DNA from: Asanoa ishikariensis | GTDB lineage: Bacteria > Actinomycetota > Actinomycetes > Mycobacteriales > Micromonosporaceae | DNA length: 64,000 nucleotides | Direction of reading: 5' to 3' | Assembly: GCF_900107455.1 (NCBI RefSeq) | Contig: NZ_FNQB01000003.1 | Coordinates: 496,001-560,000, forward strand | Shown: positions 19,802 to 47,152 of the stretch, in pieces | Numbering within the stretch: the first letter of the stretch is position 1 | Layout: each line of letters begins with the position of its first letter | Notes under the pieces: model-generated | What the model was told of the DNA's origin: nothing | Databases searched by the model: none | The model's input: only the letters and a program-made list of their open reading frames with translations | Program-made: the position numbers and the translations under genes

Positions 19802-22800
19802 ATGACGCGTCCGTCGTACTCCGATGTGCAGGTGCGGGATCCGGGGCGGCCGACCCCGCCACGCACACCGTACGAAGAGGTGGTGCACGGCATCTGGCGT
19901 GACGTGTTGTCCGATGTGGTGGGTGCCGTCGACTTCGGTGTGCACGACGACTTCTTCGAGCTCGGCGGTCACTCGCTGGCCGCGCCCCGGATCGTCGCGC
20001 GGATCCGCAAGACGCTGGGTGTGCAGGTGGCGGTCCGCGACTTCTTCGGCTGTCGTACCGTCGCCGCCCTGGCCTCGGTCGTCGCCGCGCAGTCGTCCGC
20101 CGGCCCGCAGGTCATCGAACGCCGGCCGCCCGACGCCGAAGCCGTGCTCTCCTTCGACCAGCAACGCATCTGGCTCGAGAACCAGCTCCAGCCGAGCCTC
20201 GCCTACAACGTGCACGGCCGCCAACGCCTCGTCGGCCCACTCGACGTCGCCGCCCTCGAAGCCAGCATCCGCGCGGTCGTGCGGCGCCACGAAGCGCTGC
20301 GCACCCGGTTCCCGCTGGTCGACGGACGACCGGTGCAGGTCGTCGACGACCTCGGCGACGCACCGCTGATCGACGTCGAGGACCTGCGCGAGGTCGCCGA
20401 CCCCGCCGGGCGGGCGGCCGAGCTAGCGGACGCGCAGGCCAACACGGTGTTCGACCTGACTGCCGGGGGCCTGCTGCGCTGCCTGCTGCTGCGCACCGGC
20501 GACACGCGGTGGGTGCTGAGCCTGACCGCGCACCACATCATCTGCGACGACTGGTCGATCGGGCTGTTCATGCGCGAGCTGTCGGCGCTGTACGCGGCCG
20601 GCGGTGACGCGGCCAAGGCCGGCCTGCCACCCTTGCCCATCCAGTACGGCGACTACGCCGCCTGGCAGCGCGACCGGCTCACCGGCGAGACGCTCGACAC
20701 CACCGTCGCCTACTGGCGCGACCATCTCGCGGGCGCGCCGCCCGTGCTCACGATGCCGGTGACGCGGCGGCAGGACGGCGACCGGGAGCGCGGCGAGTGG
20801 ACGCGCGGACGGCTCTCGGCGGACGAGACCGCGGCGCTGCACATGCTGTGCCGCACGCACGGCGTCTCGCCGTTCATGGTCGCGATGGCCACCTTCGCCA
20901 CCGTGCTCGCCCGCTGGTCCGGCCAGCGCGACGTGGTGATCGGCGTGCCGAACGCGGGCCGCAACGACGCCGGCACGGACACCCTGATCGGGTTCCTGGT
21001 CAACACGCTGCCGATCCGCGTCGACCTGACCGGCGAACCCACCTTCGCCGACCTGCTGACCCGCGTCCGCCAGGTCTGCCTCGACGGGTACGCACACGCG
21101 GACGCGCCGCTCGACGTGCTCGTGCGCCGGCTCGACCTGACCCGCGACACCCGGCACACGCCACTGTTCCAGGTCGTGTTGAGCATGTTGAGCACGAGCG
21201 CCTCCACGGTGTCGCTGCCCGGGCTCACGGTGGAGTCGATGGACGGCGCCACGGCGCTGCCCACCAAGCTCGACCTCACGCTCAACGTCCAGGAGTCCGA
21301 CCAGCGGCTGCACTTCCAGCTCGACTACAACCCCGAGCGCTACGACCGGTCGATGGTCGAGGCACTGGCGACCCAGCTCGAAGCCCTGCTCCGGGCCGCC
21401 GTCGCCGATCCCGCGCGGAGCATCCTCGACTACCCGCTCGGCCCCGCGCCGGCCGGCGAGGCCGCGGACGCGATCGCGCTCACCGCCGACGACCGCGTCA
21501 CCGCCCTGACCGGTTCGCCGGGGCTGGCGGCGTACGCCCGCGCGACCGCAGGGGGCGCGCTGTACGAGCCGCCGCCGTTCGGCACGGCCGACGTCTCCGC
21601 GTGGCTGCGCGAGACCGGCGTCACCGCGGCGTTCCTCAGCAGCCCGGCGCTGCGCGCGCTGGCCGGTCCCCTGCCCGACCTCCGCCTCGCTGTCGTCGAG
21701 AACACCGGCGAGCTGCTCGGCCACGACCTCGACACGCTGCGGCGGCTGGCACCGCAATGCCGGATCGTCTGCGTGTACGGGGTCACCGACGGCCGTCCAC
21801 TCACGACATACGAGGCGGCGGCCGGCCCCGCATCAGCGCGGGTGCCGCTGGGCCAGGACCCCGTCCCGCTGGTGAACCCGGCGGGCCGGCCGGCCGCCGT
21901 CGGCGAGGTGGCGGTGCTGCCCACCGGTGACCTGGCGCGCCGCGGCCCGGACGGCACGCTCGAGTACGTCGCCGGCGGCCCCGACCCGGTCGAGACGGTG
22001 GCCGCCCTGCGCGAGCTCCCCGAGGTGCGCGAGGCGCTGGTCCTAGCCGAGTGCGCCTACGTCACCGTCGGCGAGCCGGCGCGGCACGGCAGCGAGCTCC
22101 GGCAGGACCTGCTGCTGCGGCTGCCCGACTACCTGACGCCACGGCACGTGGTCGTGCTCGACGCGCTGCCCCGCACGCCGGCGGGCGACTACGACCTCGC
22201 CGCGCTCCCGGAGCCGACCGGCTCCGCGCCGGCCGCGCCCGTTCCGCCGCGCACCCCGTACGAGGAGGCGGTGCACGGCATCTGGTGCGACGTGCTCGGC
22301 GAGACCGACTTCGGGGTGCACGACGACTTCTTCGAGCTCGGCGGCCACTCGCTGCTCGCGCCACGCATCGTCAACCGGATCCGGGAGACGCTCGGCGTGC
22401 AGATCGCGGTCGGCGACTTCTTCGGCTGTCGTACCGTCGCCGCCCTGGCCTCGGTCGTCGCCGCGCAGTCGTCCGCCGGCCCGCAGCTCATCGAACGCCG
22501 GCCGCCGGACGCCGAAGCCGTGCTCTCCTTCGACCAGCAACGCATCTGGCTCGAGAACCAGCTCCAGCCGAGCCTCGCCTACAACGTGCACGGCCGCCAG
22601 CGGTTGACCGGCCCCCTCGACGTCGCCGCCTTCGAAGCCAGCGTCCGGGCGATCCTGGAACGCCACGAAGCCCTCCGCACCCGCTTCCCGCTGGTCGACG
22701 GGCGGCCCGTCCAGGTCGTCGACGACCTGGACCCGGGCTGGCGGCTCGCGGTCACCGACGTCAGCGGGGATGCCGAGCCCATGGCGCGGGCGGGCCGGCT

Positions 22801-25315
22801 GGCCGACGAGCAGGCGACCACACCGTTCGAGCTCGCCGCCGGCTCGCTGTTCCGCTGCCTGCTGGTCAAGGTGGGCGACGACGCGCACGTGCTCAGCCTG
22901 ACCGCGCACCACATCGTCTGCGACGAGTGGTCGATCGGGCTGTTCGCCAGGGAGCTGTCGGCGCTCTACGCGGCCGGCGGCGACCCGGACAGGGCCGGCC
23001 TGCGACCCCTGCCCATCCAGTACGGCGACTTCGCGGCGTGGCAGCGCGACCGGCTCACCGGCGAGACGCTCGACCGCACCGTCGCCTACTGGCGCGACCA
23101 CCTCGCGGACGTCCCACCGGCGTTGACGATGCCGGTCGCGCACGAGGACGTGGCGGCCGGCACGGCCGGTGGTCGGGCCCGCGCGGTGCTCTCCGAGGCC
23201 GAGACGGCCGCGGTGGCCGACTTCTGCCGCACGCACGGCGTGTCACCGTTCATGGTCATGATGGCCGGCTACGCCACGGTGCTGTCCCGCTGGTCCGGCC
23301 AGCGCGACCTGGTCATCGGTGTGCCGATCGCCGGCCGCACGGACGCCGGCACCGACGCCCTGATCGGGTTCCTGCTCAACACGCTGCCGATCCGCGTCGA
23401 CCTGACCGGTGAGCCCACGTTCGCCGACGTGCTCGCCCGGGTCCGCCGTGCGGCGCTGGACGGGTACGCGCACTCGGACGCCCCCTTGGACGTGCTGGTC
23501 CAGCAGCTCGACGTGAACCGTGACCCGCGCCGCACTCCGTTGTTCCAGGCGGTCCTCAACGTGGTCGGTGACACCCCGACGGCCGAGCTGGCCGGGCTCG
23601 TGGTCGAGTCGTTCGACAGCCCGGCCGCGCTGCCCTCCAAGTTCGACCTGAGCCTCAACGTCCAGGAGTCCCGGCGGCGGACCTGGTTCCAGCTCGACTA
23701 CAACCCCGCGCGGTACGAGCCCGCGATGGTCGAGGCGGTGCTGGACCAGGTGGCCGGGCTGATCCGGACCGTCGTCACGGATCCGACGCGCGGCATCCTG
23801 GACTACCCGCTCGGTCCCACGGGCCAGGTGGAGACACCTTTGGCCACCGTGGTCGAACGCCCCGAGCCGGCGCCGGAACGCTCCGCTGTGGTGGATGTCG
23901 AGGGTGAGCACAGCTACGCGTGGCTCGATGGAGCGATCGCGGCCGTCGGCGAGCGCCTGGAGCCCGACGGGCACGTCGGTCTGGTGCGGCGGCCGACCGC
24001 CTGGTTCGTCGCGGCCCTCCTGCACCGCCTGCGCACCGGCGGCGCGTACTCCGTCATCGATCCCGAGCTCGCGCTGGCGCCGTCGTATCTGGGCGTCACG
24101 AGCGTGCTCGACGTCGCCGACCACCCGGCGGAGCCCGCGGCGGCGCACGGGCTCGCCCTCGACGCGATCCGCCGGCACGCGTGGGCCGTCGACCGGCACG
24201 GCCTCACCGCCGACGACCGCTTCGCCGCGCTCACCCACCACCCCGGGCACCTCGTCGCCGCCGTCACCCACGCCGTCGCGGCCGGCGGCACCCTCGTGCT
24301 GACCGCCGAGCCCGACGACGCCGTCACCGTCCTGTTCCTGAGCCCGCCCCAGCTCCGCGCCCTCCGCGAGCCGCTCCCGGCCCTCCGCTACGCGTTCGTC
24401 GCGCACGCCGGCGACCTCCTGCCCCATGACATCGCGCGGCTGCGCAAGCTGGCGCCGGCGTGCCGGGTCGTCGCCGCGTACCGGCCGGACCGCGACGGCC
24501 GCCCGCTGGCCAGCTACCTGGTGCCGGACGGGTGGGAGCCGGGGACGGCACCGCTGCGCGTCCCGCTCGGCACCGGCGCGGTCGAACTCCGGAACGCCAC
24601 CGGCCAACCGGCCGCCGTCGGCGAGGCCGCCGAGTTGCACGCCGGAGACCGGCGCACCGGCGACCTGGTCCGGCGCTGGGCGGACGGCACGCTGGAGTAC
24701 GTCGGCGAGGTCGACGCGAACCCCGCCCACGACCCGGTGCGGACCGTGCGCGCCCTGCGCGAGCTGCCCGACGTGACGGACGCCGTCGTGACCGAGTGGG
24801 CCGACACCGACGGCAACCCGGTGCTCGTCGGCTACCTGGCCGGCCCCGATCCGGAGCGGGACACGGCCACCGTGCGCCAGCTCCTGATCCCGCGCCTCCC
24901 CCGCTACCTGCTGCCGGCCCACCTCTTCGTGCTCGACGTGATCCCGCGGACGCCGGACGGCGACTACGACCTCGACGCGCTGCCCGAGCCGGACGAGGAC
25001 GACCTGGGCGGCGACCGGTACGTCGCACCCCGCACTCCGGTGGAACGCCGACTCGCGGAGATCTTCGAGGAGCTGCTGGGCCTCGGCCGGATCGGCGTCC
25101 ACGACTCGTTCTTCGAGCTGAACGGCTTCTCGCTGCTGGCAACCCAGATGACCTCCCGCGTACGTGAGGCGTTCCAGGTGGAGCTCCCGCTGCGCGAGGT
25201 CTTCGGCTCCCCCACGGTCGAGGGCGTCGCCCAGCTCATCCTCTGGAAGCAGAGCGAGCAGTCCGACGCCGCCACGCTCGAGGCGATGCTGGCGGAGATC
25301 GAGGCGGAAGAGTGA
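19802..25315 (+). CDS. NRPS: PCP-C-A*-PCP-C-A*-PCP with two vestigial A domains
   Basis: A 1837-residue synthetase. PCP1 (Ser58 in GGHSL) has no A domain before it. C1 spans about 110-540 (HHIICDD, His244-245), PCP2 carries Ser850, C2 about 905-1340 (HHIVCDE, His1036-1037), and PCP3 Ser1777 in an unusual NGFSL. Between each C and the following PCP lies an A-like remnant (about 555-800 and 1345-1730). These keep a TGDL..DGTLEYV piece and a weak A5-like stretch, but have no A3 P-loop and no A8 hinge, and the A10 Lys is Asp in GDYDL. So none of the three PCPs can be loaded in cis. Amino acids must come in trans, probably by the Cys-type transferases. The ATG lies 6 nt after a TAGCGT box. There is no TE domain. 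Confidence 0.9.
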   Translation: MTRPSYSDVQVRDPGRPTPPRTPYEEVVHGIWRDVLSDVVGAVDFGVHDDFFELGGHSLAAPRIVARIRKTLGVQVAVRDFFGCRTVAALASVVAAQSSAGPQVIERRPPDAEAVLSFDQQRIWLENQLQPSLAYNVHGRQRLVGPLDVAALEASIRAVVRRHEALRTRFPLVDGRPVQVVDDLGDAPLIDVEDLREVADPAGRAAELADAQANTVFDLTAGGLLRCLLLRTGDTRWVLSLTAHHIICDDWSIGLFMRELSALYAAGGDAAKAGLPPLPIQYGDYAAWQRDRLTGETLDTTVAYWRDHLAGAPPVLTMPVTRRQDGDRERGEWTRGRLSADETAALHMLCRTHGVSPFMVAMATFATVLARWSGQRDVVIGVPNAGRNDAGTDTLIGFLVNTLPIRVDLTGEPTFADLLTRVRQVCLDGYAHADAPLDVLVRRLDLTRDTRHTPLFQVVLSMLSTSASTVSLPGLTVESMDGATALPTKLDLTLNVQESDQRLHFQLDYNPERYDRSMVEALATQLEALLRAAVADPARSILDYPLGPAPAGEAADAIALTADDRVTALTGSPGLAAYARATAGGALYEPPPFGTADVSAWLRETGVTAAFLSSPALRALAGPLPDLRLAVVENTGELLGHDLDTLRRLAPQCRIVCVYGVTDGRPLTTYEAAAGPASARVPLGQDPVPLVNPAGRPAAVGEVAVLPTGDLARRGPDGTLEYVAGGPDPVETVAALRELPEVREALVLAECAYVTVGEPARHGSELRQDLLLRLPDYLTPRHVVVLDALPRTPAGDYDLAALPEPTGSAPAAPVPPRTPYEEAVHGIWCDVLGETDFGVHDDFFELGGHSLLAPRIVNRIRETLGVQIAVGDFFGCRTVAALASVVAAQSSAGPQLIERRPPDAEAVLSFDQQRIWLENQLQPSLAYNVHGRQRLTGPLDVAAFEASVRAILERHEALRTRFPLVDGRPVQVVDDLDPGWRLAVTDVSGDAEPMARAGRLADEQATTPFELAAGSLFRCLLVKVGDDAHVLSLTAHHIVCDEWSIGLFARELSALYAAGGDPDRAGLRPLPIQYGDFAAWQRDRLTGETLDRTVAYWRDHLADVPPALTMPVAHEDVAAGTAGGRARAVLSEAETAAVADFCRTHGVSPFMVMMAGYATVLSRWSGQRDLVIGVPIAGRTDAGTDALIGFLLNTLPIRVDLTGEPTFADVLARVRRAALDGYAHSDAPLDVLVQQLDVNRDPRRTPLFQAVLNVVGDTPTAELAGLVVESFDSPAALPSKFDLSLNVQESRRRTWFQLDYNPARYEPAMVEAVLDQVAGLIRTVVTDPTRGILDYPLGPTGQVETPLATVVERPEPAPERSAVVDVEGEHSYAWLDGAIAAVGERLEPDGHVGLVRRPTAWFVAALLHRLRTGGAYSVIDPELALAPSYLGVTSVLDVADHPAEPAAAHGLALDAIRRHAWAVDRHGLTADDRFAALTHHPGHLVAAVTHAVAAGGTLVLTAEPDDAVTVLFLSPPQLRALREPLPALRYAFVAHAGDLLPHDIARLRKLAPACRVVAAYRPDRDGRPLASYLVPDGWEPGTAPLRVPLGTGAVELRNATGQPAAVGEAAELHAGDRRTGDLVRRWADGTLEYVGEVDANPAHDPVRTVRALRELPDVTDAVVTEWADTDGNPVLVGYLAGPDPERDTATVRQLLIPRLPRYLLPAHLFVLDVIPRTPDGDYDLDALPEPDEDDLGGDRYVAPRTPVERRLAEIFEELLGLGRIGVHDSFFELNGFSLLATQMTSRVREAFQVELPLREVFGSPTVEGVAQLILWKQSEQSDAATLEAMLAEIEAEE
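20038..20222 (+). repeat. 185-bp near-identical repeat, copy 1 (PCP1/C1 junction)
   Basis: Almost identical to 22414-22598 (a few mismatches in about 185 bases), covering the end of a PCP and the start of the next C domain, from the DFFGCRT codons to the YNVHGRQ codons. Flanking sequence diverges. This suggests recent duplication or gene conversion between modules. Confidence 0.75.
22414..22598 (+). repeat. 185-bp near-identical repeat, copy 2 (PCP2/C2 junction)
   Basis: Second copy of the PCP-C junction repeat, 2376 bp downstream of the first and in the same frame. See 20038-20222. Confidence 0.75.
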
Positions 25316-26745
25316 TGCGCGACCTGTCGGGCCACCTCGCCGCCCAGCTCGCGGCCGACCGCGCCGCACCGGCCGCGGTCGGTGACGTGACGCTGACCTA
25401 CCAGGGCCTGGCCGACCGGGTCGACGCGCTCGCCGGCAGCCTCGAAGGCCACGTGACGGCCGGCGACGTGGTGGCGCTCGACATCCGCTCGCCCGTCCTG
25501 GGGCTCGTGGCGAGCCTGGCCACCGACCGGCTCGGCGCGGCGTACCTCCCGCTCGACACGGCCGCGCCGGCCGGCCGGCAGCGCTGGGTGGTCGAGAACG
25601 CGGCCGCGCGGGTGGTGGTCCACCAGACCGGGCCACTCGCGCTGGAGCCGCGGCCGGTGACCGCGACCCGACCCGCCTGGCCACTGACCGACCCGGGCTA
25701 CGTCATCTACACCTCCGGCACCACCGGGCGCCCCAAGGGCGTACACGTGCCGAAGCGGTCGCTCGTCGAACGCCTCGACGGCCTGCTCCAGCTGCCAGGC
25801 CTGCGCCGTGGCGGCTCCATCCTCGCGATGAGCCCGCTGTCGTTCGACATGTCGGTGGTCGAGCTCCACCTGCCACTGGCCGCCGGCGGGACGATGGTCA
25901 CCGTCGACCCGGCCGCGCGCCGCGACGTCGACGTGTTCGACCGCGCCGTGCGGGAGCACCGACCCGACGTGGTCCAGGCGACGCCGTCGTTCTTCCGCTT
26001 GATGATCGCCTCCGGGTGGCGGGGCAACCCCGACGTGGCGCTCTGGTGCGGCGGCGAGGCCCTCACCGACGAGTTGGCGAACGCGCTGCACGAGCGCTGC
26101 GGCACGCTCTGGAACATGTACGGGCCGACCGAGGCGACCGTGTGGGCCTCCGCCTGCCGGCTGGCGCCCGGTCAGCCGATCTCGCTCGGCACCGACCTGC
26201 CCGGCACCGCTGTCGAGCTGGTCGACCAGCGGGGCCGCGTGCTCACCGCCGCCGGCGCCGAGGGCGAGATCCGGATCAGCGGCGCCGGCATCGCCGACGG
26301 CTACCTCGACGCCACACCGACCGAGACGGCGCGGTTCGCACATACGGCGACGTCCCGGACCTACCTGACCGGCGACCGGGCGCGCCGCGCCGACGACGGC
26401 TCACTGACGTTCGTGGGCCGGCTCGACAACCAGGTGAAGGTGCGCGGGCACCGGGTCGAGCTCGGCGAGGTCGAGTCCACACTGGAGTCCCACCCGGCCG
26501 TCACCGAGGCCGTCGTCGTGCTGGTCGACCAGGGCGATCCCGACACCACCCACCTGTCGGCCGCGGTGGTGACCCGCGGCGGCGTCCGGGTGCGGGACCT
26601 GCGCGCCTGGTTGGCGGAGCGACTGCCGGCCCCGATGCTCCCGTCGACGTTCCAGGTCGCGACCGCGCTGCCGCGGACCAGTGCCGGGAAGCTCGACCGC
26701 GTGATGATCAGCAAGCGGCTGTCCGCCGGTGAGCGGCTCTCCTGA
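25315..26745 (+). CDS. Free-standing NRPS adenylation domain
   Basis: A 476-residue A domain with no carrier domain. A3 (VIYTSGTTGRPKG), A5 ([10 protein letters not shown]), A7 (TYLTGDRARR), A8 (QVKVRGHRVELGEVE) and A10 (SAGKLDR) are all present, so it should be active. A hand alignment to the GrsA pocket gives about D-M-V-Q-W-G-M-V-W-K, which I cannot assign. The ATG overlaps the NRPS stop as TGATG, so it is translated with that synthetase. Its natural role would be to load the synthetase's N-terminal PCP, which has no A domain of its own. Confidence 0.9.
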   Translation: MRDLSGHLAAQLAADRAAPAAVGDVTLTYQGLADRVDALAGSLEGHVTAGDVVALDIRSPVLGLVASLATDRLGAAYLPLDTAAPAGRQRWVVENAAARVVVHQTGPLALEPRPVTATRPAWPLTDPGYVIYTSGTTGRPKGVHVPKRSLVERLDGLLQLPGLRRGGSILAMSPLSFDMSVVELHLPLAAGGTMVTVDPAARRDVDVFDRAVREHRPDVVQATPSFFRLMIASGWRGNPDVALWCGGEALTDELANALHERCGTLWNMYGPTEATVWASACRLAPGQPISLGTDLPGTAVELVDQRGRVLTAAGAEGEIRISGAGIADGYLDATPTETARFAHTATSRTYLTGDRARRADDGSLTFVGRLDNQVKVRGHRVELGEVESTLESHPAVTEAVVVLVDQGDPDTTHLSAAVVTRGGVRVRDLRAWLAERLPAPMLPSTFQVATALPRTSAGKLDRVMISKRLSAGERLS

Positions 26746-26767
26746 CAGACCCGACGAAAGGACCGCC

Positions 26768-29700
26768 GTGGCCACCGGCAACCCCCTGACCGACAGCGTC
26801 CGGACCGTCGCGGAGCTGCTGCGCACGCGCGCGGCCGACCAGCCGGACCGGCTGGGATACACGTTCCTGGTCGACGGCGAGCACGAGGAACTGCCCCTGA
26901 CCTACGGCGAGGCGGACCGGCGGGCGCGGGTCGTCGCGCAGGCACTGCGGGAGGCCGGCGCCCGGCCGGGCATGCGCGCGTTGCTGGTGCTGCCGCCGGG
27001 ACTCGACTACGTCACCACGCTCTTCGGGTGCCTCTACGCGGGTGTGGTGGCGGTGCCCGTCTATCCACCGGACCCGTTCCAGCTCGCGCGGTCGCTGCCG
27101 CGGCTGTTGGCCATCGTCGAGGACGCCGAACCCACGGTCGCGCTGACCACCGCGCCGTTGCTCGGCTTCCTCGACGAGGTCGGCCGCCTCGCACCCGCGC
27201 TCGGCGCCCTGCGGTGGGTCGCCGTGGACGCCGTCGACGAGGCCACCTCGGACGAGCCGGTGACCGTGGCGCCGGAGGCGACCGCGTTGCTCCAGTACAC
27301 CTCGGGGTCCACGGCGGACCCGCGCGGCGTGCTGCTGTCGCATGCCAACCTGCTGCACAACTCGGCACACATCCAGCGGCTGTTCCACACCACCAGCGAC
27401 AGCCACGGGATGGTCTGGCTGCCGCCGTACCACGACATGGGTCTGATCGGTGGCCTGCTCCAGCCGCTCTACGGCGGGTTCCCGGTGACGCTGATGTCAC
27501 CGCTGCACTTCCTGGAGCAGCCCATGCGCTGGCTGCGGGCGATCGCGCGGCACGGCGCGACGGCCAGCGGCGGCCCCAACTTCGCGTACGACCTGTGCGC
27601 ACGCCGGTGCGGCCCGGACGAGGCCGCCCAGCTCGACCTGAGCTCCTGGCAGGTCGCCTTCAACGGTGCCGAGCCGATCCGGCCGGAGACGCTGGAGCGG
27701 TTCGCGGCGACGTTCGCGCCAGCGGGTTTCCGGGCGGAGGCGTTCCTGCCGTGCTACGGCCTGGCGGAGGCGACGCTGATCGTCTCGGGCCACGGCGGCA
27801 CCGGTGCCGGCCCGGCCGCGCTGCCCGTCGTGCCCGTCGACCGCGCCGCGCTCGAAGGCCACGTCGTGTCGCCGCCCACCGACGGCGCCGCCGTCACCCG
27901 GCTGACGAGCTGCGGTCCCAGCCACCCGGACCAGCGCCTCGCGATCGTCGATCCGGCGACGTCGACCGCCTGTGAGCCCGGTCGGGTGGGCGAGATCTGG
28001 GTGTCCGGCCGAAGCGTCGCCGCCGGATACTGGCGCCGGCCGGACGAGTCCGCCCGGGTCTTCGACGCGCGTCTCGCCGGCGACGCCGCCACCGCGTACC
28101 TGCGCACGGGCGACCTGGGCTTCCTCCATGATGGACAGCTCGTGGTCACCGGCCGGCTCAAGGACCTGGTCATCGTGCGCGGCCAGAACCACTACCCGCA
28201 GGACATCGAGCTCAGCGTCGAGCGGGCCGACCCGAGCCTGCGCCCCGGCTGCGGCGCGGCCTTCGTGGTCGCGGAGGACGAGGACCGGCTGGTCGTCACG
28301 TGCGAGGTGCGGCGCGGTGCGGTCGTCGTGGTCGCCGACGTGGCCACCCGGATCCGGCAGGCGGTCGCGTTGGAGCACGGCCTGGACGTGCACACGGTGG
28401 TCCTGGTCGAGGCCGGCGGCATGCCGAAGACGTCCAGCGGCAAGGTGCAGCGGCGACTGTGCCGCGCCCGCTACCTCGCCGGGGGCCTGCCCGAGATCGG
28501 TCGCGCCGAGCCGCCGGCCGCCCCCTCGAACGACGCCGCGCCGGTCGCCGCGGAGCAGGTGCGCGCCGCATCGGAGGAGACCCGGCGCGCGCTGCTGGAG
28601 CGCTACCTGGTGGCTCTGCTCGTCGAGATCACCGGCACCGCGCCCGCCGATCGGCTCGCGCCGCTGCTCGCGACCGGGCTCGACTCGCTGGCCGTCGTGC
28701 AGCTCAAGCACCGCGTCGAGAGCGAGCTTCAGGTCGACCTGTCGCTGCCCGCGCTGCTGGGCGGGGCCAGCCTGGCCGAGACCGTCGACCAGCTCGAAGA
28801 GCAGCTCGCGGCCGGTCCCGCGCCCCGACCGCCGGCTCCCGCGGCGGGATCGGCGGAGCCGATCGCGCCGATGGCGTACGGCCAGCGGTGGATGTGGTAC
28901 CTCCAGAGCCTCGAACCGGCCAGTCCGGCGTACACGATCGCGGTGGCCCTGCGGTTGCTCGATCCCGCGGACCCGGCCACCCTGCGGCGCGCGCTCGACG
29001 CGCTGGTGGCCCGCCATCCCGCGCTGCGCACGACGTTCCAGGTGAGCGACGGCGAGCCGGTGCAGGTCGTCGCGCCGACCGGCACGGCGGCCTACCGCGA
29101 GCACGCCGCGGCCCACCTCGACGACGCCACGTTGCGCGCCGTGCTGACCCGGGCCGCCCGCAGGCCGTTCGACCTGGCGACCGGGCCGCTGTTCCGCGCG
29201 GACCTCTACCGGCGCGGCACCGACGACGTCCTGCTGGTGTCGATGCACCACATCGTCACGGACTTCTGGTCGTTGACCGTCCTGGCCCGCGAGCTCGGCG
29301 AGCTGTACGCGGCGTACGCCGCCGGCCGGGAAACCTCCCTTGCCGAACCGGCGACGACGTACGCGGAGGCCGTGCAGTGGCAACAGTCCCTGTTGGACGA
29401 CCCCGTGGCCGGCGCGCGGCTCGCCTCCTATTGGGACGGTCAGGTCGGCGCGGGAATGCCCCGCCTGGCCCTGCCCGCGGTCGACGCGACCGGTGGTGAC
29501 GGCGTGCGGCAGTTCGCGCTGCCGGCCGCGCTCGCCGAGCGGCTGCGGGAGCGGGCCTCGGAGGCCAACGTCACGCTCCACATGACGCTGCTGGCGGCCT
29601 TCCAGGGCGTCCTGCACCGGTACACCGGCCAGGAGGACCTGGTGGTCGGCGCCGACGTGGCCGGTCGTGGCCAGCCCCGGTTCGCCGAGGTGGTCGGCTG

Positions 29701-30944: not shown

Positions 30945-30950
30945 TCACCC

Positions 30951-30998
30951 AGTCAAGCGGACGCCCCCGGTCGCCTCCTGTCCTGTGTATCGGCGACA
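30951..30998 (-). promoter_or_regulatory. Cluster operator and -10 box of transferase 1
   Basis: Operator TGTC-N12-GACA at 30979-30998. A minus-strand TTGACT box (30951-30956) begins 26 bp after the right half-site and lies 6 nt before the ATG at 30944. The operator is base-for-base identical over 21 bp to the one at 63767-63787. Confidence 0.55.
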
Positions 30999-31005
30999 GC
31001 GCCCG

Positions 31006-31401: not shown

Positions 31402-31431
31402 GCCATCGATGCCCGCCGTCCGCAGGGCCCG

Positions 31432-37084: not shown

Positions 37085-37122
37085 GGTCGATCCTCCCGGT
37101 GGGCGGAGCGGCACCGGCCGCT

Positions 37123-38748: not shown

Positions 38749-38785
38749 CGAGTCGGCCTCCCGGGGCGCGTCAGTGCAGACCGGC

Positions 38786-38882
38786 ACGCTAGCGCCGCGC
38801 GGTTGGGATCCGGTTACGCGGACGGCAGCGGCCTATCCCTCCTTCCGGTGACATCACCGCCGCACGGGGCCGCCGGTAGGTT
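38786..38882. promoter_or_regulatory. Divergent promoters of radical SAM and SARP genes
   Basis: Plus strand: operator variant TATC-N12-GACA (38834-38853) with a TAGGTT -10 (38877-38882) beginning 27 bp after GACA. The perfect dyad GGTGA-CA-TCACC (38847-38858) overlaps it. Minus strand: CGCGTAACCG (38811-38820) and TAGCGT (38786-38791), spaced exactly as before transferase 2. Confidence 0.5.
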
Positions 38883-38937
38883 CGGAACCGGAAGGGAAAG
38901 GTGCGACGGGACGGCGGCCATTGTGGATGGAGCACCG

Positions 38938-39786: not shown

Positions 39787-39796
39787 CCGGCGGCGG

Positions 39797-41002
39797 TCAG
39801 ACCAGCGCGACCGGCAGGTGCTTGATGCCGAGCATGAAGTTCGACGCCAACCGCTCGACCGGGCCGGCCGGCGCGAACCGGAGTCCCCGGTTGACCAGCT
39901 CGGTCATCAGCAGCGAGATCTCCATCCGCGCCGCGGGCAGCCCGATGCAGCGGTGGTTGGCCACGCCGAAGGCCACGTGGTGGTTCGGGGTGCGGCCGAG
40001 ATCGAGCCGGTCGGGATCGGGGAACTGGTCACCGTCGCGGTTCGCCGACGCGTTCCAGAGCGTCAACGTGTCGCCGGCCTGGATCGGCACCCCGCGGATC
40101 GTCACGTCGCGGGTCGCGGTGCGGCAGACGTACGCGTTGGTCGAGGTCCAGCGGAACAGCTCGTCGACCGCGGTCGGCAGCAGCTCGGGCTGGGCGTTGA
40201 GGCGGGCCGCCTCGGCCGGATGCCGGATCAGCGTCTCGACGATCGCCGACGCCGTGAACGGTGTGGTCTCGTTGCCGCCGACCGCGACGTTCAGCGCGTT
40301 GTAGAGGATCTGGCTCTCCGTGAGCTCGCGCCCGTTGGTGCGGGCCGCGACCAGGATGCTGACCAGGTCGTCACCCGGCTCCCGCCGGCGCTGGTCGAGC
40401 AGCTCGGCCAGCACCTCGAAGATCTCCACCTGGGCCGCCACCAGCGTCATCGAGGTCGCGGTGTCGCCGGCGTACTCGCCGTCGCGGTAGCCGATCATCG
40501 TGCGGGTCAGGCGCAGCAGGTGCATGGCCTCGTCGCGCCCGATGCCGAACATCGCGGCCAGGAGCCCGGCCGGCAGCAGCGGCGCGATGTCCACGGCGAA
40601 GTCGCCGCCGCCGTCCGCCGTCATCTTGTCCAGCGCCGCGCCGACGTACTGGCGCACGAACCCGCCGGCCCGCTCCATCATCGGGGCGCTGAACGCCTTG
40701 TGCACGTGCTGGCGCAGCAGCCGGTGCTCGGGCGGGTCGGAGCAGATCAGCATCTGGCCGGACGCGGTGTCGGTGGCGCTGCGATAGGAACCGCCGAGCA
40801 CCGTCCCGTTCTTCGACGAGTAGGTCGCCGGGTCGCGGTACACGGCGGTGACGTCGTCGTAGCGCGTGAGCGCCCAGTAGCCACCGGTCGCGGTCGCGTT
40901 CCAGTAGACCGGGGCGTTCGCGCGTAACCACGCCCACGCGGCATACGGATCGCCCGTGACGAACAGGTCGAGGTCGTCCAGATCGATGACGGTCGTCGAC
41001 AT
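39797..41002 (-). CDS. Cytochrome P450 (P450-2)
   Basis: A 401-residue P450 with the I helix GGNETTPF, K helix DELFRW and haem loop FGVANHRCIG, in which Ala replaces the usual Gly of FGxGxH. The ending SNFMLGIKHLPVAL links it to the P450-1 group. Start ATG 41002 follows GGGAGGG. It is convergent with the SARP gene (10-nt gap) and shares a divergent promoter with the second NRPS, so the two are probably induced together. Substrate unknown; a carrier-bound residue is likely. Confidence 0.9.
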   Translation of the reverse strand: MSTTVIDLDDLDLFVTGDPYAAWAWLRANAPVYWNATATGGYWALTRYDDVTAVYRDPATYSSKNGTVLGGSYRSATDTASGQMLICSDPPEHRLLRQHVHKAFSAPMMERAGGFVRQYVGAALDKMTADGGGDFAVDIAPLLPAGLLAAMFGIGRDEAMHLLRLTRTMIGYRDGEYAGDTATSMTLVAAQVEIFEVLAELLDQRRREPGDDLVSILVAARTNGRELTESQILYNALNVAVGGNETTPFTASAIVETLIRHPAEAARLNAQPELLPTAVDELFRWTSTNAYVCRTATRDVTIRGVPIQAGDTLTLWNASANRDGDQFPDPDRLDLGRTPNHHVAFGVANHRCIGLPAARMEISLLMTELVNRGLRFAPAGPVERLASNFMLGIKHLPVALV

Positions 41003-41034
41003 GCGTCACCCTCCCGCAGATACGGCCTCCGCAG

Positions 41035-41111
41035 AGCCTAGGGCCGGCCCGTCCGCCGGTCGTGTCACCTGAACCAGGGCCAGGCACACGGGGTACGAGC
41101 GCCGATAGCGT
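41035..41111. promoter_or_regulatory. Divergent promoter with cluster operator (P450-2 / second NRPS)
   Basis: Operator TGTC-N12-GCCA at 41063-41082. Plus -10 TAGCGT (41106-41111) begins 27 bp after the right half. Minus -10 TAGGCT (41035-41040) begins 26 bp after the inverted GACA. Confidence 0.6.
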
Positions 41112-41145
41112 CGCTGGCGCGCAGACCAACAGGTGGGGAGCAGTC

Positions 41146-44100
41146 ATGACCGACTTGCAGAGCCGGATCGCAGCTCTCAGCCCCGAGCAGCGTGCCCGGT
41201 TCGAGTCGCGTCTCGCCGCCGATCGTCCCCGGGCCGTAGTCGAGCGGATTCCGCGGCGGGAGAAGGACCGGCCGACACCCCTGTCCTTCGCGCAGCAGCG
41301 GGAGTGGGCTGTCGAGCAGTTCCGGCCGTCGAACAACGTCACGGCCGCCCTCCGCCTCGACGGCGAGGTCGACCTGCGCGTGCTCAGCGACGTGCTGACC
41401 GAGATCGTCTCGCGGCACGAGGTGCTGCGATCGACGGTCGAGATCGTGGACCGCCGCCCGACCCAGGTCGTGCGCCCGGTCACGGCGGTGCCCGTGCCCG
41501 TCGAGGACCTCCGCGCGCTCGACGGCGACGGGCAGCGCGACGCGATCCGGGAGCGGTGCGACGCCGAGGTGGTGCGCCCGTTCCCGGCGGACCAGGCCCA
41601 CCGGCTGCGGGCCACCGCCCTGCGGCTCGACTCCGAGAGCTACGTCGTGCTGGTCACGCTCGATCACGCGGCGGCCGACGCCTGGTCGATGATCATCCTG
41701 TTGCGCGAGGTGATCGCGCTCTACCCGGCCCTGCGCGGCGGAGCCGAGGGAGGGCTGCCGCCGCTGCCGATCCAGTACGGCGACTTCGCGGTCTGGGAAC
41801 GGGAGTGGCTGGACGAGGAACGGATGGCCGCGGAGCTCGGGCACTGGAAGCAGGTGCTGGCCGACCTCCCGCCCCGCCTCGCCCTGCCGGCCGACCGCTC
41901 GTCCGCCCTGCGCCGCACCTTCGCCGGCGACCACCACACGCTCACCGTGGCCGGCGAGCGGACCGCGGCGTTGCAGCGCTTCGCCGAGCGCGAGGGCGTG
42001 TCGCTGTCGATGGTCATGCTGGCCGCCTGCTCGGTCGTGCTGCACCGCTACACCCACCAGGACGACCTGGTGTTCGGCTCGGCGGTCGGTGGCCGACTCA
42101 GGCCGGAGACCGAGCAGCTCATCGGCTGCTTCGCCAACGCGTTGCCGCTGCGGATGCGGCTGTCGCCGGGGCAGACGCTGCGCGACGTGCTGCACGCGGC
42201 CCGCGACGTGGTGTCCACGGCGTTCGACCACCAGAGCGTCCCGTTCGACCGGCTGATCGAGGAGCTGGCGCCCGACGAGGCCGCGCAGACGCCGCTGATC
42301 CAAATGATGATCAACGTGCTGTCCACGCCGGGCGCCGTGCTGCGCCCCGACCGCGCGCTGGAGCTGCCGGGCCTGGCGGTCAGCTACGTGCCGATGGATC
42401 CGGGGCCGATCACGATCGACCTGATCCTGGTCGTCCAGGCGGCACCCGAGACGCTGCACTTCGACTGGCACTACAGCACGGAGCTGTTCGACCGCGGCAC
42501 GATCGAACGCCTCGCGGCCCAGCTCCCGCACGTCCTGGAACAGCTTGTCGACGAACCGGACCGACGGATCGGCGAGGTGCGCCTGCTGGACACCGGCGTG
42601 CGTCGTCCGGCGACCCGCCCCGCCGGACCGGAGCTCGGCTTCCTCGAGCTGTTCGCGCGCCAGGTGGCCCGCACACCCGACGCTCCGGCCGTCGTGTGCG
42701 ACAGCGTCCCGCTCAGCTTCGCCGAGCTCGACCGCGCGGCCAACCGGCTCGCCCACCATCTGCGCGGCCTCGGCGTCGGCGCCGAGACACCCGTCGGGGT
42801 CCTGGTCGACCGGTCCCCCGCGCTGACCGTGGCCGTGCTGGGCATCCTGAAGGCCGGCGGAGCGTTCCTGCCCCTCGACCCGGCCTATCCGGTCGACCGG
42901 ATCGCCTACGTGCTCGCCGACGCCGGCGCCCCCGTGCTGGTCAGCACCGAGAAGCTCGCCGACCTGGCCGAGACCGCCGGCGTCGCGGACCTCGTGCTGC
43001 TCGACGGGCCGGACCGGTTCGCCGACGGGCCGGACGGCGACCCCGGCGACCTGACCCACCCGACGTCGGCGGCCTACGTGATCTACACGTCCGGCTCGAC
43101 CGGGCAACCCAAGGGCGTGGTGATCGAGCACCGGTCGCTCGCGGCGTTCGCCACCGAGACGGCCGAGCGCCTCGGGCTCGGCGCCGGCGACCGGTTCCTC
43201 CAGTTCGCCTCGCCGGGCTTCGACGTGCTGGTCGAGGAGCTGTTCCCGATCTGGGCGGTCGGCGGCGCCGTGGTCGTCCCGCCGGAGCGGATGGCCGGGG
43301 TCAACCTCGACCTCGTCGCACTGACCCGGCAGGACCGGATCACGGTCATGGAGCTACCCGCCGCCTACTGGCACGAGTGGGTACGCGACCTCGACCGCGC
43401 CGGCGGCGCCCTGCCGCCGTGTCTGCGCCTGGTGATCGTGGGCGCCGAACGCGTGCTGCCGGAGCGGCTGGCGACCTGGCAGACCTTCGGGGTCCCGCTG
43501 TCGCACGTCTACGGCATCACCGAGACGACCGTCAGCTCCACCTTCTTCGACCTGCCGGCCGACGCGCCGGAGACCGACCTGCGGCACCTGCCGATCGGCA
43601 CGGAGCTGCCCTTCGCGGAGCTGCACGTCCTCGACCCCGAGCTGCGGCCGGTGCCGGCCGGCGCCGTGGGCGAGCTCTACATCGGCGGGATCAGCGTCGG
43701 CCGGGGCTACCTGCGGCGCCCGGGGTTGACCGCACAGCGCTTCGTCGCCTCGCCGGACCCCGAGCGGCCCGGGCAACGGGTCTACCGCACCGGGGACCTC
43801 GTGCGGCGGCGGCCCGACGGCAACGTCGAGTTCCTGTCCAGAGTGGACAGCCAGATCAAGATCCGGGGCTACCGGGTCGAGCCCGCCGAGATCGAGTCGG
43901 CGATCTGCCGGCACCCGGCGATCGCGCAGGCCGTCGTCGGCGTCCACGAGCCCGAACCCGGCGACCGACGGCTGGTGGCCCACCTGGTGACCCGCGACGG
44001 CACCGCGGTGGGCAGCGCCGACCTGCGCCGCTTCCTCGCCCGCGAGCTGCCGCCGTACCTCGTGCCGTCGGCGTTCGTGCCGGTCGAGGAGATCCCGCTG

Positions 44101-46374
44101 ACCGAGAACGGCAAGGTCGACTTCGCGCGCCTGCCCCAGCCCGGCGGCGAGCGGCCCGACCTGGTCGAGGCGCTCGTGCTGCCGGAATCGCCGCTGGAGC
44201 GCCAAATCGCGCAGCTCGTCGCCGCCGTGCTCGGTGTCGACACGGTCGGCGCCAACGACGACTTCTTCGAGCTCGGCGGCGACTCGATCCTGGCCATCAT
44301 GGTCGTCTCGCGGGCGCAGGAGGAGGGCATCAGCCTCACGCCGCTGGACATCTTCCAGCACCGCACCGTGGCGCAGCTCGCCCGGACGGTGGCCGGCACC
44401 GAGGCGGCCCGGGTCATCGCGCCCCGGTCACCGGACGCCGCGCCGGTGCTCTCCTTCGACCAGGAGCGGCTCTGGCTGGAGGACCAGCTCGTGCCCGGGC
44501 CGGCGTACAACGTCGGCTGGCAGCAGCGGCTGATCGGGCCGCTGGACCTGGCCCTCGTGGACCGCTGCCTCCGCACGATCCTCGCCCGCCACGAGTCGCT
44601 GCGGTCGCGCTTCCCGATCGCGGACGGCCGGCCGATCCAGGTCGTCGACCCGCTCGACGACGGCTGGCGGCCACGGTTCGAGGACTTCAGCGCGCTGGCA
44701 GACGGCGTGGCGCGGGCCAAGGCGCTGATGGGCGAGCAGGTGGCCACCGGCTTCGACCTGGCCAACGGTCCGCTGGTCCGCTGCCTGGTGGTCAAGCTCG
44801 GCGAGAACGACCACCTGATCAGCATGATCTCCCACCACGTCGTCGCCGACGTGGTCTCGGTCGGCCTGTTCGTGCGTGAGCTGGGCATGCTCTACCAGGC
44901 GGGCGGCGACCCGGTGGCGGGCGGCCTGCCGGAGCTGCCGATCCAGTACCTGGACTACGCGGTGTGGCAGCGCGAGCGGCTCGCCGGAGCGGAGCTCGAC
45001 CGGCAGGTCGACTACTGGCGCGACCATCTCGACGGCGCGCCCCGCGCCCTGACGATGCCGGCCCAGGCGCACGTCGCCGCGGAGCCCCGCGGCGACCGGG
45101 TCTTCTCGCGGTTGTCGGCGGCGGACACCGCGGCGTTGAAGGAGTTGTGCCGCGCGCGCGACGTGACGCCGTTCATGGTCGTGCTCGGGGCCTTCGGCAC
45201 CGTGCTGGGCCGCTGGTCCGGCCAGCGCGAGGTGGTGGTCGGCGTGTCCATCAGCAACCGGACCGACCACGGCACGGAAAGCCTCATCGGGTCGTTCATC
45301 AACACGCTCCCGCTGCGCGTCGACTTCTCCGGCGAGCCCACCTTCGCGGAACTGCTCGACCGCGTACGCCAGGTCGCCCTCGGCGGTTATGCCCACGCCG
45401 ACGCCCCGCTGGACGTCATCATGAAACGGCTGGGTGTGACCCGTGACCCGCGCCGCACACCACTGTTCCAGGTGATGCTCAACGTCGTCGACGTGCCGCC
45501 CATCGAGCGTTTCGGCGACATCGTGGTGGCAGACGTCGAGGCGCCCCCGCTGCCGCCGAGCTTCGACCTCGTGCTCACCACCAACGAGATCAAGGGCGAG
45601 CTCCACTACTTCCTCGAGTACGACGCGACTAGGTTCCCCGACGACCTCATGCGCGACCTCGCGGCCCACCTGGGCCGGTTCCTCAGCGCGGTCGCCGCCG
45701 ACCCGACGCGGGGCGTCCTCGACTACGCGCTGGGGGACGCGGAGGCGCCCGACGAGGCGGCGGTGGACCAGCACTGGGCCGTCGAGCGGTTCGGCCTGAC
45801 CTCGGCCGACCGCTTCGTCGTGCTGTCCGGCCCGCCCGCACAGGCGCTCGCGGCGGCGTCCGCGGCCCGACACGCCGGTGGCACGCTGGTGACCACCGAC
45901 CGGCCGCCGAACAACGACCCCGGCGCGCTCGCGCGGTGGCTGCGGGCACAACGGATCAGCGTCGTCCACGCCACTCCGCCTTTGCTGCGGGCGCTCGCCG
46001 CCAAGGGACCGCTGCACGCGCTGCGCTACGTCTTCGTGGAGAACTCCGGCGCGCTCACCGCGCACGACATCGCGGTCATCCGGAGCCTGGCGCCGGCGGG
46101 CCGCGTGGTCGCGACCTACCGCACCGGCGCCGACGGGGTGCCGGTCGCGGCCTACCAGGTGCCGGAGGACTGGCGCCAGGAAGCGGCGCCGCTGAGGGTG
46201 CCGCTCGGCACCGGGCTGCCCGGCCGCCCGGTGCGGCTGCTGCACCCGGGCGGCCAGGCGGCGGCGGTCGGCGAGGTCGCCGCGATCTGGCGGGGCGCCG
46301 ATCCCACTGGCGACCTGGGCCGCCGGTGGCCCGACGGCACGCTCGAGTTCGTGGGCAAGCTAACCGAGCACTGA
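41146..46374 (+). CDS. NRPS: C-A-PCP-C-A*N (split at the A-domain hinge)
   Basis: A 1742-residue synthetase from ATG 41146 (GTGGGGA upstream). C1 (about 45-480) has DHAAADA, with His174 and Asp178 kept and the first His as Asp. The A domain is complete (YTSGSTGQPKG, VYGITETTVS, VYRTGDLVRR, QIKIRGYRVEPAEIE, ENGKVDF with Lys990). Its pocket reads about D-V-E-E-I-G-V-V-S-K; the two Glu suggest a cationic residue such as capreomycidine, Arg, Orn or Dab. PCP Ser1047 is in GGDSI. C2 has HHVVADV (His1230-1231). After it comes only the N-terminal part of a vestigial A domain, ending DGTLEFVG just before the stop. The rest is encoded by the next gene. This is the only active in-line A domain in the window. 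Confidence 0.9.
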   Translation: MTDLQSRIAALSPEQRARFESRLAADRPRAVVERIPRREKDRPTPLSFAQQREWAVEQFRPSNNVTAALRLDGEVDLRVLSDVLTEIVSRHEVLRSTVEIVDRRPTQVVRPVTAVPVPVEDLRALDGDGQRDAIRERCDAEVVRPFPADQAHRLRATALRLDSESYVVLVTLDHAAADAWSMIILLREVIALYPALRGGAEGGLPPLPIQYGDFAVWEREWLDEERMAAELGHWKQVLADLPPRLALPADRSSALRRTFAGDHHTLTVAGERTAALQRFAEREGVSLSMVMLAACSVVLHRYTHQDDLVFGSAVGGRLRPETEQLIGCFANALPLRMRLSPGQTLRDVLHAARDVVSTAFDHQSVPFDRLIEELAPDEAAQTPLIQMMINVLSTPGAVLRPDRALELPGLAVSYVPMDPGPITIDLILVVQAAPETLHFDWHYSTELFDRGTIERLAAQLPHVLEQLVDEPDRRIGEVRLLDTGVRRPATRPAGPELGFLELFARQVARTPDAPAVVCDSVPLSFAELDRAANRLAHHLRGLGVGAETPVGVLVDRSPALTVAVLGILKAGGAFLPLDPAYPVDRIAYVLADAGAPVLVSTEKLADLAETAGVADLVLLDGPDRFADGPDGDPGDLTHPTSAAYVIYTSGSTGQPKGVVIEHRSLAAFATETAERLGLGAGDRFLQFASPGFDVLVEELFPIWAVGGAVVVPPERMAGVNLDLVALTRQDRITVMELPAAYWHEWVRDLDRAGGALPPCLRLVIVGAERVLPERLATWQTFGVPLSHVYGITETTVSSTFFDLPADAPETDLRHLPIGTELPFAELHVLDPELRPVPAGAVGELYIGGISVGRGYLRRPGLTAQRFVASPDPERPGQRVYRTGDLVRRRPDGNVEFLSRVDSQIKIRGYRVEPAEIESAICRHPAIAQAVVGVHEPEPGDRRLVAHLVTRDGTAVGSADLRRFLARELPPYLVPSAFVPVEEIPLTENGKVDFARLPQPGGERPDLVEALVLPESPLERQIAQLVAAVLGVDTVGANDDFFELGGDSILAIMVVSRAQEEGISLTPLDIFQHRTVAQLARTVAGTEAARVIAPRSPDAAPVLSFDQERLWLEDQLVPGPAYNVGWQQRLIGPLDLALVDRCLRTILARHESLRSRFPIADGRPIQVVDPLDDGWRPRFEDFSALADGVARAKALMGEQVATGFDLANGPLVRCLVVKLGENDHLISMISHHVVADVVSVGLFVRELGMLYQAGGDPVAGGLPELPIQYLDYAVWQRERLAGAELDRQVDYWRDHLDGAPRALTMPAQAHVAAEPRGDRVFSRLSAADTAALKELCRARDVTPFMVVLGAFGTVLGRWSGQREVVVGVSISNRTDHGTESLIGSFINTLPLRVDFSGEPTFAELLDRVRQVALGGYAHADAPLDVIMKRLGVTRDPRRTPLFQVMLNVVDVPPIERFGDIVVADVEAPPLPPSFDLVLTTNEIKGELHYFLEYDATRFPDDLMRDLAAHLGRFLSAVAADPTRGVLDYALGDAEAPDEAAVDQHWAVERFGLTSADRFVVLSGPPAQALAAASAARHAGGTLVTTDRPPNNDPGALARWLRAQRISVVHATPPLLRALAAKGPLHALRYVFVENSGALTAHDIAVIRSLAPAGRVVATYRTGADGVPVAAYQVPEDWRQEAAPLRVPLGTGLPGRPVRLLHPGGQAAAVGEVAAIWRGADPTGDLGRRWPDGTLEFVGKLTEH

Positions 46375-46393
46375 CGAGAGAATCGAGGACGTC

Positions 46394-47152
46394 ATGGCGA
46401 GCCGTGCCGAGCAGGGCAGCCGCGGCGCGGCTGTGGATCCGGTGGAGACCGTCGCCGCGCTGCGCGACATCGAACAGGTCAGCGACGCGCTGGTCACCGA
46501 ACGGACCGGCCCGGACGGCGCGCCGGTCCTGGTCGCCTACGTGGCCGGCCCGGATCCCGCGCTGGGCACCGGACCGATCCGCCAGCAGTTGCTGAGCCAG
46601 CTACCCCGGGACATGGTGCCGGAGCACTTCGTCGTGCTCGACGAGCTTCCGTTGACCGCCGACGGCGACTACGACCTGGCCGCGCTGCCGGACCCGGACC
46701 CGGCGGAGACCCCCGCCCGCGGTTTCGTCGCTCCCACCAGCCCGATGGAGCAGCGGCTGGCGGCGCTGTTCAAGCAGATCCTCGGCGTCGACCAGGTCGG
46801 CGTCCACGACAGCTTCTTCGCGCTGGGCGGGTCGTCGCTCCAGGCGACCGTCGTCACGAGCCGCATCTACGACGACTTCGACATCAACCTGTCGTTGCAG
46901 GACATGTTCGCCAACGCGACGGTCGACGAGTTGTCGCAGATCATCGTCCGGACACTCGGCGAACGGGCGAGCGTCGCGACGATCAAGGAGAACAAGCGCA
47001 GCCTCAAGGGCATCGGCCTGGCCATCCACGGCAAGCTGCCGCTCCCGATCCGCCGGATCGTCCCGCCGGGCGTGCCGTGCGGCGGCTCGCCCGGCGACGG
47101 CAAGCGCCGGATCCGGTTCGGCAAAGCGAAGAAGGACGACGCGGCGAGCTGA
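46394..47152 (+). CDS. NRPS fragment: A*C-PCP with basic tail
   Basis: A 252-residue protein that completes the module left open by the previous synthetase. Residues 15-95 match the C-terminal part of the vestigial A domains (DPVETVAALRDIE, then DGDYDLAALP with Asp for the A10 Lys). A PCP follows (FFALGGSSLQ, Ser148), then a basic, Pro/Gly-rich tail of about 60 residues (KENKRSLKGIGLAIHGKLP and on). The break lies exactly where the A-domain hinge would be. ATG 46394 has GAGG upstream and the gap is 19 nt, so this looks like a real gene split rather than a sequencing frameshift. There is no TE, so release needs another protein. Confidence 0.85.
   Translation: MASRAEQGSRGAAVDPVETVAALRDIEQVSDALVTERTGPDGAPVLVAYVAGPDPALGTGPIRQQLLSQLPRDMVPEHFVVLDELPLTADGDYDLAALPDPDPAETPARGFVAPTSPMEQRLAALFKQILGVDQVGVHDSFFALGGSSLQATVVTSRIYDDFDINLSLQDMFANATVDELSQIIVRTLGERASVATIKENKRSLKGIGLAIHGKLPLPIRRIVPPGVPCGGSPGDGKRRIRFGKAKKDDAAS

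Follow-up and report, generated by a model that had tools for sequence, protein, structure and literature searches.

Why would a nonribosomal peptide synthetase (NRPS) keep adenylation (A) domains that have lost the motifs of catalysis? The question is raised by a 64,000-nucleotide stretch of the Asanoa ishikariensis genome (contig NZ_FNQB01000003.1, positions 496,001 to 560,000; hereafter the window), which Pfam matches and alignment show to be part of a large NRPS cluster in a 9.1 Mb genome whose G+C and gene content point to an actinobacterium. A first-pass annotation of these letters had described three intervals between a condensation (C) domain and a carrier (T, or PCP) domain that hold A-like remnants, here called A*, and had proposed that the modules are loaded in trans. 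By Pfam and alignment the remnants are indeed there, two in 19802-25315 and one spread over the open reading frames (ORFs) 41062-46374 and 46394-47152. We consider it likely that A* is non-catalytic, that A-T didomains and transferases with a Cys nucleophile load the carriers in trans, and that A* is kept as a joint between the carrier and the C domain. The A* modules of the window are the following, in window coordinates:

19802..25315 (+), NRPS T-C-A*1-T-C-A*2-T, 1837 aa (Pfam)
21449..22213 (+), A*1 remnant, about 255 aa; N-terminal part, A3, A4, A6 and A8 absent; GDYDL
22268..22453 (+), T domain behind A*1, LGGHSLLAP
23828..24988 (+), A*2 remnant, 387 aa; A2-like N-terminal part; A3, A4, A6 and A8 absent; GDYDL
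25034..25246 (+, approximate limits), T domain behind A*2, Phe preceding the pantetheine Ser, ELNGFSLLAT
41062..46374 (+), NRPS C-A-T-C-A*3(core); 41062 is the first GTG, and the ATG at 41146 is an equally likely start
45745..46371 (+), core half of A*3; the protein stops at the hinge, DGTLEFVGKLTEH
46394..47152 (+), A*3(sub)-T, a separate protein with a C-terminal tail; ATG after a GAGGAC ribosome-binding-like site
46394..46693 (+), subdomain half of A*3, GDYDL
46751..46942 (+), T domain of the split module, ALGGSSLQAT

In an alignment with the window's six intact A domains, all three A* lack A3 (the P-loop), A4, A6 and A8, and the Lys of A10 has become Asp within GDYDL. The annotation had named A3, the A8 hinge and A10, and A4 and A6 now join the list of losses. 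A5 is degraded (YGVTD, YRPDRD and YRTGAD), A7 (TGDL) and A9 are still present, and the copies have in common the residues that had been pointed out, namely TGDL..DGTLEYVG/EFVG, RVPLG and GQ/R-P/A-AAVGE. Most of the N-terminal part is kept by A*2 and gone from A*1 and from the A*3 core. The Pfam AMP-binding model gives the first NRPS protein 20.9 bits, under its cut-off of 29.9, with profile positions 226-378 as the best stretch. We excluded that the motifs are present in a misread form: alignment with the six intact domains and with four from other genomes shows true absence.

The same holds for relatives elsewhere. The elements expected of a functional A domain (A3 P-loop, A4 Asp, A8 hinge and A10 Lys) are found in all six intact domains of the window, whereas none of the 26 aligned A* from all genomes has A3, A4, A6 or A8, and in all 25 that reach A10 its Lys is replaced (by Asp in 14, Glu in four, Gly in three, Thr in two and Ala in two). 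The YDL that follows this position is retained in 23 of the 25. A 27th copy, from genome G1342, reads GAYDL and has no P-loop by eye. Judged by their motifs, A* appear to be dead, non-catalytic adenylation domains. Could they still activate an amino acid by an unusual route? The TGD of A7, retained in 19 of 26, would speak for it, yet the P-loop, A4, the A8 hinge and the A10 Lys are all gone and intact A domains are available in trans, so that we give this idea a practically negligible chance.

The annotation had also suggested a search for GDYDL-type A* in other genomes. We searched whole genomes with a profile built from three copies, namely A*1, A*2 and that of Streptomyces sp. MUM 2J, accepting E values up to 1e-30. 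Matches were found in 1 of 6 genomes of the genus (the window's own), 3 of 394 of the class, 10 of 354 of the window's family, 8 of 341 of the family of G220, 2 of 394 of the family of MUM 2J and 1 of 396 of a phylum sample (again its own), the sets being overlapping. A* and the core halves of split copies have E values below 1e-60 and the split subdomain halves 1e-28 to 1e-31; ordinary A domains reach about 1e-22 at best in three fully scored genomes. The signal is above chance, because A* score far better than ordinary A domains. The weakest genome matches (G567, G633, G801 and G887; E 1e-31 to 1e-35) were rejected: they have the P-loop and NGK and are therefore intact A domains, which we left out of the count and reused as canonical rows in trees, three of them as outgroup.

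This leaves 27 A*, none with a P-loop, across 16 genomes: eight in the window's family, six in that of G220, plus MUM 2J and G1342. Three copies are found in the window's own genome, G201 and G534, two in G220, G616, G863, G902 and G933, and one in MUM 2J, G401, G554, G569, G716, G1012, G1013 and G1342. In the larger searches the best 4-5 candidates per genome were scored, and A* may therefore be undercounted. G1342 stands outside the alignment, the tree and the Fisher counts, and G534_b, whose frame ends ahead of A10, outside the trees and the A10 count. The G534 cluster (L063-L066) has several frame breaks (in LanB, C-A and A*), probably assembly errors.

Did these copies decay separately? 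In a tree with 34 canonical A domains (30 drawn at random from 124, plus four), 25 A* form one clade with a Shimodaira-Hasegawa-like (SH-aLRT) support of 100, and on homologous columns with three outgroup rows the support is 100/100. A single clade means that the decay most simply happened once, ahead of the multiplication of copies, in agreement with the order of events proposed by the annotation; by their sequences, A* are most simply the descendants of one decayed ancestor that was copied afterwards. Within the first NRPS, the two T-C units (19856-23827) are 71% identical overall, with DNA windows of up to 98%, and beside them A*1 and A*2 are only 57% identical, a patchy pattern as seen after gene conversion.

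That the remnants are kept, as had also been claimed, is borne out by the ratio of nonsynonymous to synonymous substitution rates (dN/dS, Nei-Gojobori). It lies at 0.21-0.63 in 11 pairs of A*, which have members in common and are not independent; the highest upper 95% bound is 0.85, and in each pair none of 1000 bootstraps reached 1. For the window's copies the values are 0.63 (A*2) and 0.43 (A*3).

The carriers behind A* are likewise conserved, with a signature of their own. They retain the pantetheine serine, and of the 23 T domains called behind A*, 15 have Phe directly ahead of it, one such carrier per cluster in 15 clusters; the 16th cluster, that of G1342, likewise has one. The Phe is seen in none of the 120 readable among 128 other T domains called in A* regions, and in none of the 38 readable among 39 called in 11 control NRPS loci (nine of 40 kb and two of 20 kb, from three genomes). 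The enrichment has a p of 7e-17 on called numbers (unreadable motifs: 8 of 128, 1 of 39, and 1 of 23, in G933). The T behind the window's A*1 reads GGHS and was counted among the 128, and control ORF c10, which has a partial A* label, was taken as an ordinary A domain. Carriers of split modules have Ser in place of the Phe in all six cases. The C domains preceding A* retain HHxxxD (HHIICDD, HHIVCDE and HHVVADV). The first C domain of the second NRPS (41062-42600) reads DHAAADA where HHxxxDG is usual, its first His being Asp.

A*3 lies across two ORFs, as annotated; to this we add the conservation of the split. The window's core protein ends at DGTLEFVGKLTEH and the ATG of the subdomain-T protein follows 19 bases on. 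A*3 is divided at the same point in six genomes (the window's, G201, G220, G534, G863 and G902), always with core and subdomain on two ORFs and T on the second. The break sits where the A8 hinge is lost, and A3, A8 and the A10 Lys are missing from all six. The candidate start codon of the second gene is ATG in four genomes and GTG in two, and in G201 and G863 the split genes overlap in a start/stop ATGA. A sequencing error was rejected on these grounds: same position, candidate starts, and differing stop and overlap layouts in six assemblies, of which G534 is the weakest case given the other frame breaks in its cluster. The six split A* cluster in the tree with no fused copy among them, with weak support (65/32). 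We had considered that the split arose twice, after a tree including residues upstream of A* parted the six rows (p-AU 0.074), and dropped this when homologous columns only brought them together, weakly. The fused C-A-T-C-A*-T of G933 belongs to another branch. No docking extension was seen by eye at the A*3 break; contact between the two A* halves, or between the subdomain-T protein and the C domain, should therefore return the carrier.

Where would the residues come from? The annotation had listed three A-PCP didomains, two free A domains and a free PCP, and all were located in the window, together with further candidates:

25312..26745 (+), free-standing A domain, core motifs intact
30177..30944 (-), stand-alone thioesterase-fold protein, Cys nucleophile GHCSG
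31432..33189 (-), A-T didomain, core motifs intact, cassette X
33209..33940 (-), stand-alone thioesterase-fold protein, Cys nucleophile GHCMG, cassette X
35303..37084 (-), A-T didomain, core motifs intact, cassette X
37123..38787 (-), B12-binding radical SAM enzyme, PhpK family, cassette X
39797..41002 (-), P450, cassette X
48398..49171 (+), stand-alone thioesterase-fold protein, Cys nucleophile GHCAS
49208..50005 (+), stand-alone thioesterase-fold protein, Cys nucleophile GHCGA; travels with A-T 49992
49992..51788 (+), A-T didomain, core motifs intact
54307..54618 (+), free T (PCP) protein
56199..57539 (+), P450
61573..63012 (-), free-standing A domain, core motifs intact

An active-site Cys in place of the Ser nucleophile is the hallmark of SyrC/CmaE aminoacyltransferases. 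All four stand-alone proteins, which match Pfam Thioesterase, have both the thioesterase-type alpha/beta-hydrolase fold and the Cys. At least one A-T didomain ORF is present in each of the 16 A* regions (71-120 kb) against 2 of the 11 control loci (20-40 kb). Stand-alone Cys transferases above 200 bits occur in 13 of the first 15 A* clusters and in that of G1342, making 14 of 16, and in one of the 11 control loci, with a cut set after the scores were seen and a profile built from the window's own four proteins; within 20 kb of A* one is found in 11 of 15 clusters (p 0.002). Four control loci have Cys-type thioesterase domains inside an NRPS, at 40-49 bits. In control locus c8 of MUM 2J (L123-L124), where no A* was called, a stand-alone Cys-type transferase (220 bits) adjoins a P450 and a T.

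The clearest association is that of five genes which we call cassette X (31432-33189, 33209-33940, 35303-37084, 37123-38787 and 39797-41002), comprising two A-T didomains, the GHCMG transferase, the radical SAM enzyme and a P450. Counterparts 67-86% identical are found in exactly the five other split clusters; in the ten non-split clusters no match exceeds 47%, and for the radical SAM gene there is none at all. Co-occurrence with the split is 6 of 6 against 0 of 9 (p 2e-4), this and the supplier p-values being too small owing to the relatedness of the clusters. The radical SAM protein scores 720 bits against a PhpK-family P-methyltransferase model (cut-off 600), and despite this PhpK-type match none of the genes scanned was recognised as a phosphonate gene. 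Close homologues of transferase 48398 (64-77%) occur in ten other A* clusters, and those of P450 56199 (65-78%) in nine. On the Streptomyces side, the one-A* clusters of MUM 2J and G1342 have one A-T adjoining a P450 and a GHCGS transferase. The homologue comparison was made without rows for P450 34100 and SARP, whose queries were in the wrong frame.

From what can be seen directly (lost motifs, single origin, constraint, recurring split, carrier signature and co-inheritance of cassette X) we infer a loading route, an assignment of cassettes to modules and a role for A* as a joint. A stand-alone A-T didomain would activate an amino acid, which may be tailored on that carrier by P450s and, in one cassette, also by the B12 radical SAM enzyme; a thioesterase-fold aminoacyltransferase with a Cys nucleophile would then move the residue onto the T behind A*. 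Cassette X would most likely serve the split A*3 carrier, and for the Phe carrier behind A*2 the best candidate is transferase 48398-49171. A* itself would be a structural joint that holds or presents the T to its C domain. With A*3, the C-domain protein keeps the core, and subdomain and T are on a separate one; contact between core and subdomain would therefore probably bring the carrier back. The trans loading that had been proposed is thus supported by anatomy (three A-T didomains, four Cys thioesterase-fold proteins, one cassette inherited together with the split module), and transfer is the step that we deduce from it.

The annotation's own idea was that A* may serve for docking. In that case it would recruit the transferase or the A-T didomain, and the geometry of C and T would be independent of it. 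Conserved motifs that have no catalytic role, and the clustering with A-T didomains and Cys transferases, would be accounted for in this way. Recruitment alone does not explain why A*3 is split so that the subdomain goes with T and the core with C, an arrangement that fits a joint between its own C and T at least as well as transferase docking. We regard a docking surface as possible and somewhat doubtful.

Several observations weigh against a joint loaded in trans. A*b of G201 (L023, near 2762100) ends a C-A-T-C-A* protein, with T on its own ORF next; for A*b of G616 (L075, near 872150), no T is seen in the 900 bases from its end, and an oxygenase-like ORF follows the terminal A*b. It follows from these layouts, both read by eye, that the protein holding an A* does not always continue into a carrier. 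Ten of 15 clusters have an A-T didomain within 20 kb of an A*, and 2 of the 11 controls have one (p 0.02). In G716 and G933 no stand-alone Cys transferase scores above 200 bits (that of G716 reaches 56 bits), G933 has one A-T ORF for two A*, and cassette X holds two A-T didomains for a single split A*. The 48398-type transferase is missing from G201, G401, G616, G716 and G933, all with a Phe carrier. The A-T adjoining it elsewhere is about 40% identical to A-T 49992 of the window, which travels with transferase 49208 (window, G534, G401 and G554; 69-75%). We had proposed a whole cassette for A*2 (A-T 49992, P450 56199 and transferase 48398); as its A-T is not orthologous to the one beside 48398-type transferases, this was withdrawn and our confidence slightly lowered. 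Ser before the pantetheine Ser is also seen in 3 of 120 other T and 2 of 38 control T domains (5 of 158). Finally, A* is constrained less tightly than the neighbouring C domain, whose dN/dS of 0.17-0.39 is below that of A* in each of six comparable pairs (for WIN_2/G534_a the C part, misaligned by the G534 frame break, was unused and the A* value of 0.63 used).

This last point would also suit a relic awaiting loss, with trans loading alone being of importance, as would the G616 copy with no T seen behind it and the loss of the N-terminal part in 6 of 26 A* (profile match starting at position 90 or later). A relic would not be expected to persist as one clade in 16 genomes, with dN/dS below 1 in 11 of 11 pairs, nor to conserve motifs such as GxYDL (YDL in 23 of 25) and to lack identical segments throughout, and we think it quite improbable.

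A neighbouring gene raises another route. At 15859-18165 (+) lies a LanB-like protein (Pfam Lant_dehydr_N only), with 55-58% identical homologues in nine other A* clusters, for which a tRNA-dependent step is possible. Some A* carriers might be charged from aminoacyl-tRNA by this protein and not by A-T didomains: the gene is found at this identity in 10 of 16 A* clusters including the window, and adjoins the T-C-A*-T gene in seven. Yet homologues are only distant (33-36%) in G401, G554 and G1342 and no match exists in G201, G616 and G933; LanB-type enzymes act on peptides and are not known to act on carrier thiols, and precedents exist for the A-T plus transferase route. We hold this charging route to be very unlikely.

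Returning to the joint, A* is an inherited part retained after the loss of its catalytic motifs, with halves on different proteins at the hinge in six genomes. If it is a joint for trans-loaded carriers, it would be nature's own design for supplying a module with modified amino acids, and the GxYDL remnant, the GFS carrier and the split core and subdomain genes would give a handle to find such modules and to predict the transferase that feeds them. A bolder form of the idea would make A* a new non-catalytic NRPS domain, a joint for carriers. A*3 would be its detachable version, in which a cartridge of A*sub and T is charged and tailored off-line by A-T, P450, B12 radical SAM enzyme and Cys transferase and then docks on C-A*core, with the former contact between core and subdomain as the interface; A*1 and A*2 would be fused versions, tied to their own transferases by the residue before the pantetheine serine. 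We offer this tentatively, and it is unlikely to be right as a whole.

The remaining genes of interest in the window are:

13507..14586 (-), VioC-type arginine beta-hydroxylase
14718..15848 (+), MppP-like enzyme dependent on pyridoxal phosphate (PLP)
26729..30190 (+), FAAL-like ligase-T-C (acyl starter)
47154..48299 (-), VioD-type capreomycidine synthase
63821..64000 (+), start of a T-C protein that continues past the right window edge, up to 65515 in window coordinates

The VioC-type and VioD-type proteins score above their model cut-offs and the MppP-like enzyme under its own; the VioC- and VioD-type genes suggest a capreomycidine-type residue. A literature search for the product of the cluster returned no matching paper. 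A capreomycidine peptide is described in PMC8399532, which, like the papers cited below, we draw on in excerpt.

How do these modules compare with known systems? In the albicidin, ramoplanin and enduracidin systems an inactive A domain is complemented by a stand-alone A-T (PMC8949500). The window resembles the albicidin type: its in-line A* lacks the core motifs, and the residue would come from a separately encoded stand-alone A-T, of which three are present in the same cluster within the window. It is set apart, by description, by the A* clade with its shared deletions, the 16 genomes, up to three copies per cluster, the carrier signature and the Cys transferases. Corallorazine Crz1/Crz2 offers a split A domain, active when both proteins are mixed (PMC11342130). 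As with A*3, the break separates the core from the subdomain, each part has its own ORF, and the second protein also carries the T; the Crz domain works on mixing, whereas A*3 has no catalytic motifs.

SyrE/SyrB1/SyrC (syringomycin) and CmaA/CmaE/CmaD (coronamic acid) share with our scheme an A-T didomain, on-carrier tailoring and a transferase to another T; in the last module of SyrE the A domain is wholly absent, whereas here a remnant is retained (PMC8949500, PMC8748450). Transfer between carriers is described for CmaE and for LgnA, the latter using a Ser (PMC8748450). The dA domain of SidD is, like A*, a truncated and inactive A domain, whose T is loaded by another A; compared by description, it is without about 290 N-terminal residues, whereas A* has internal deletions and a changed A10 (PMC10192304). 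CmnI and VioI of capreomycin and viomycin biosynthesis are A-less modules loaded from elsewhere, and the window also has VioC- and VioD-type genes; CmnI has no A domain of its own and is loaded by that of another module, whereas A* modules keep a remnant (PMC12400406).

Our search of the literature on inactive, truncated, degenerate, split or remnant A domains, which did not cover most subscription journals, returned precedents and no account of the A* family. As these excerpted sources describe them, trans complementation of a dead A domain (albicidin) and an A domain that is split and works (corallorazine) were already known. New, as far as this search shows, are the inheritance of A* as a clade, its occurrence in a form encoded by two genes, the signature of the carriers and the link to a cassette.

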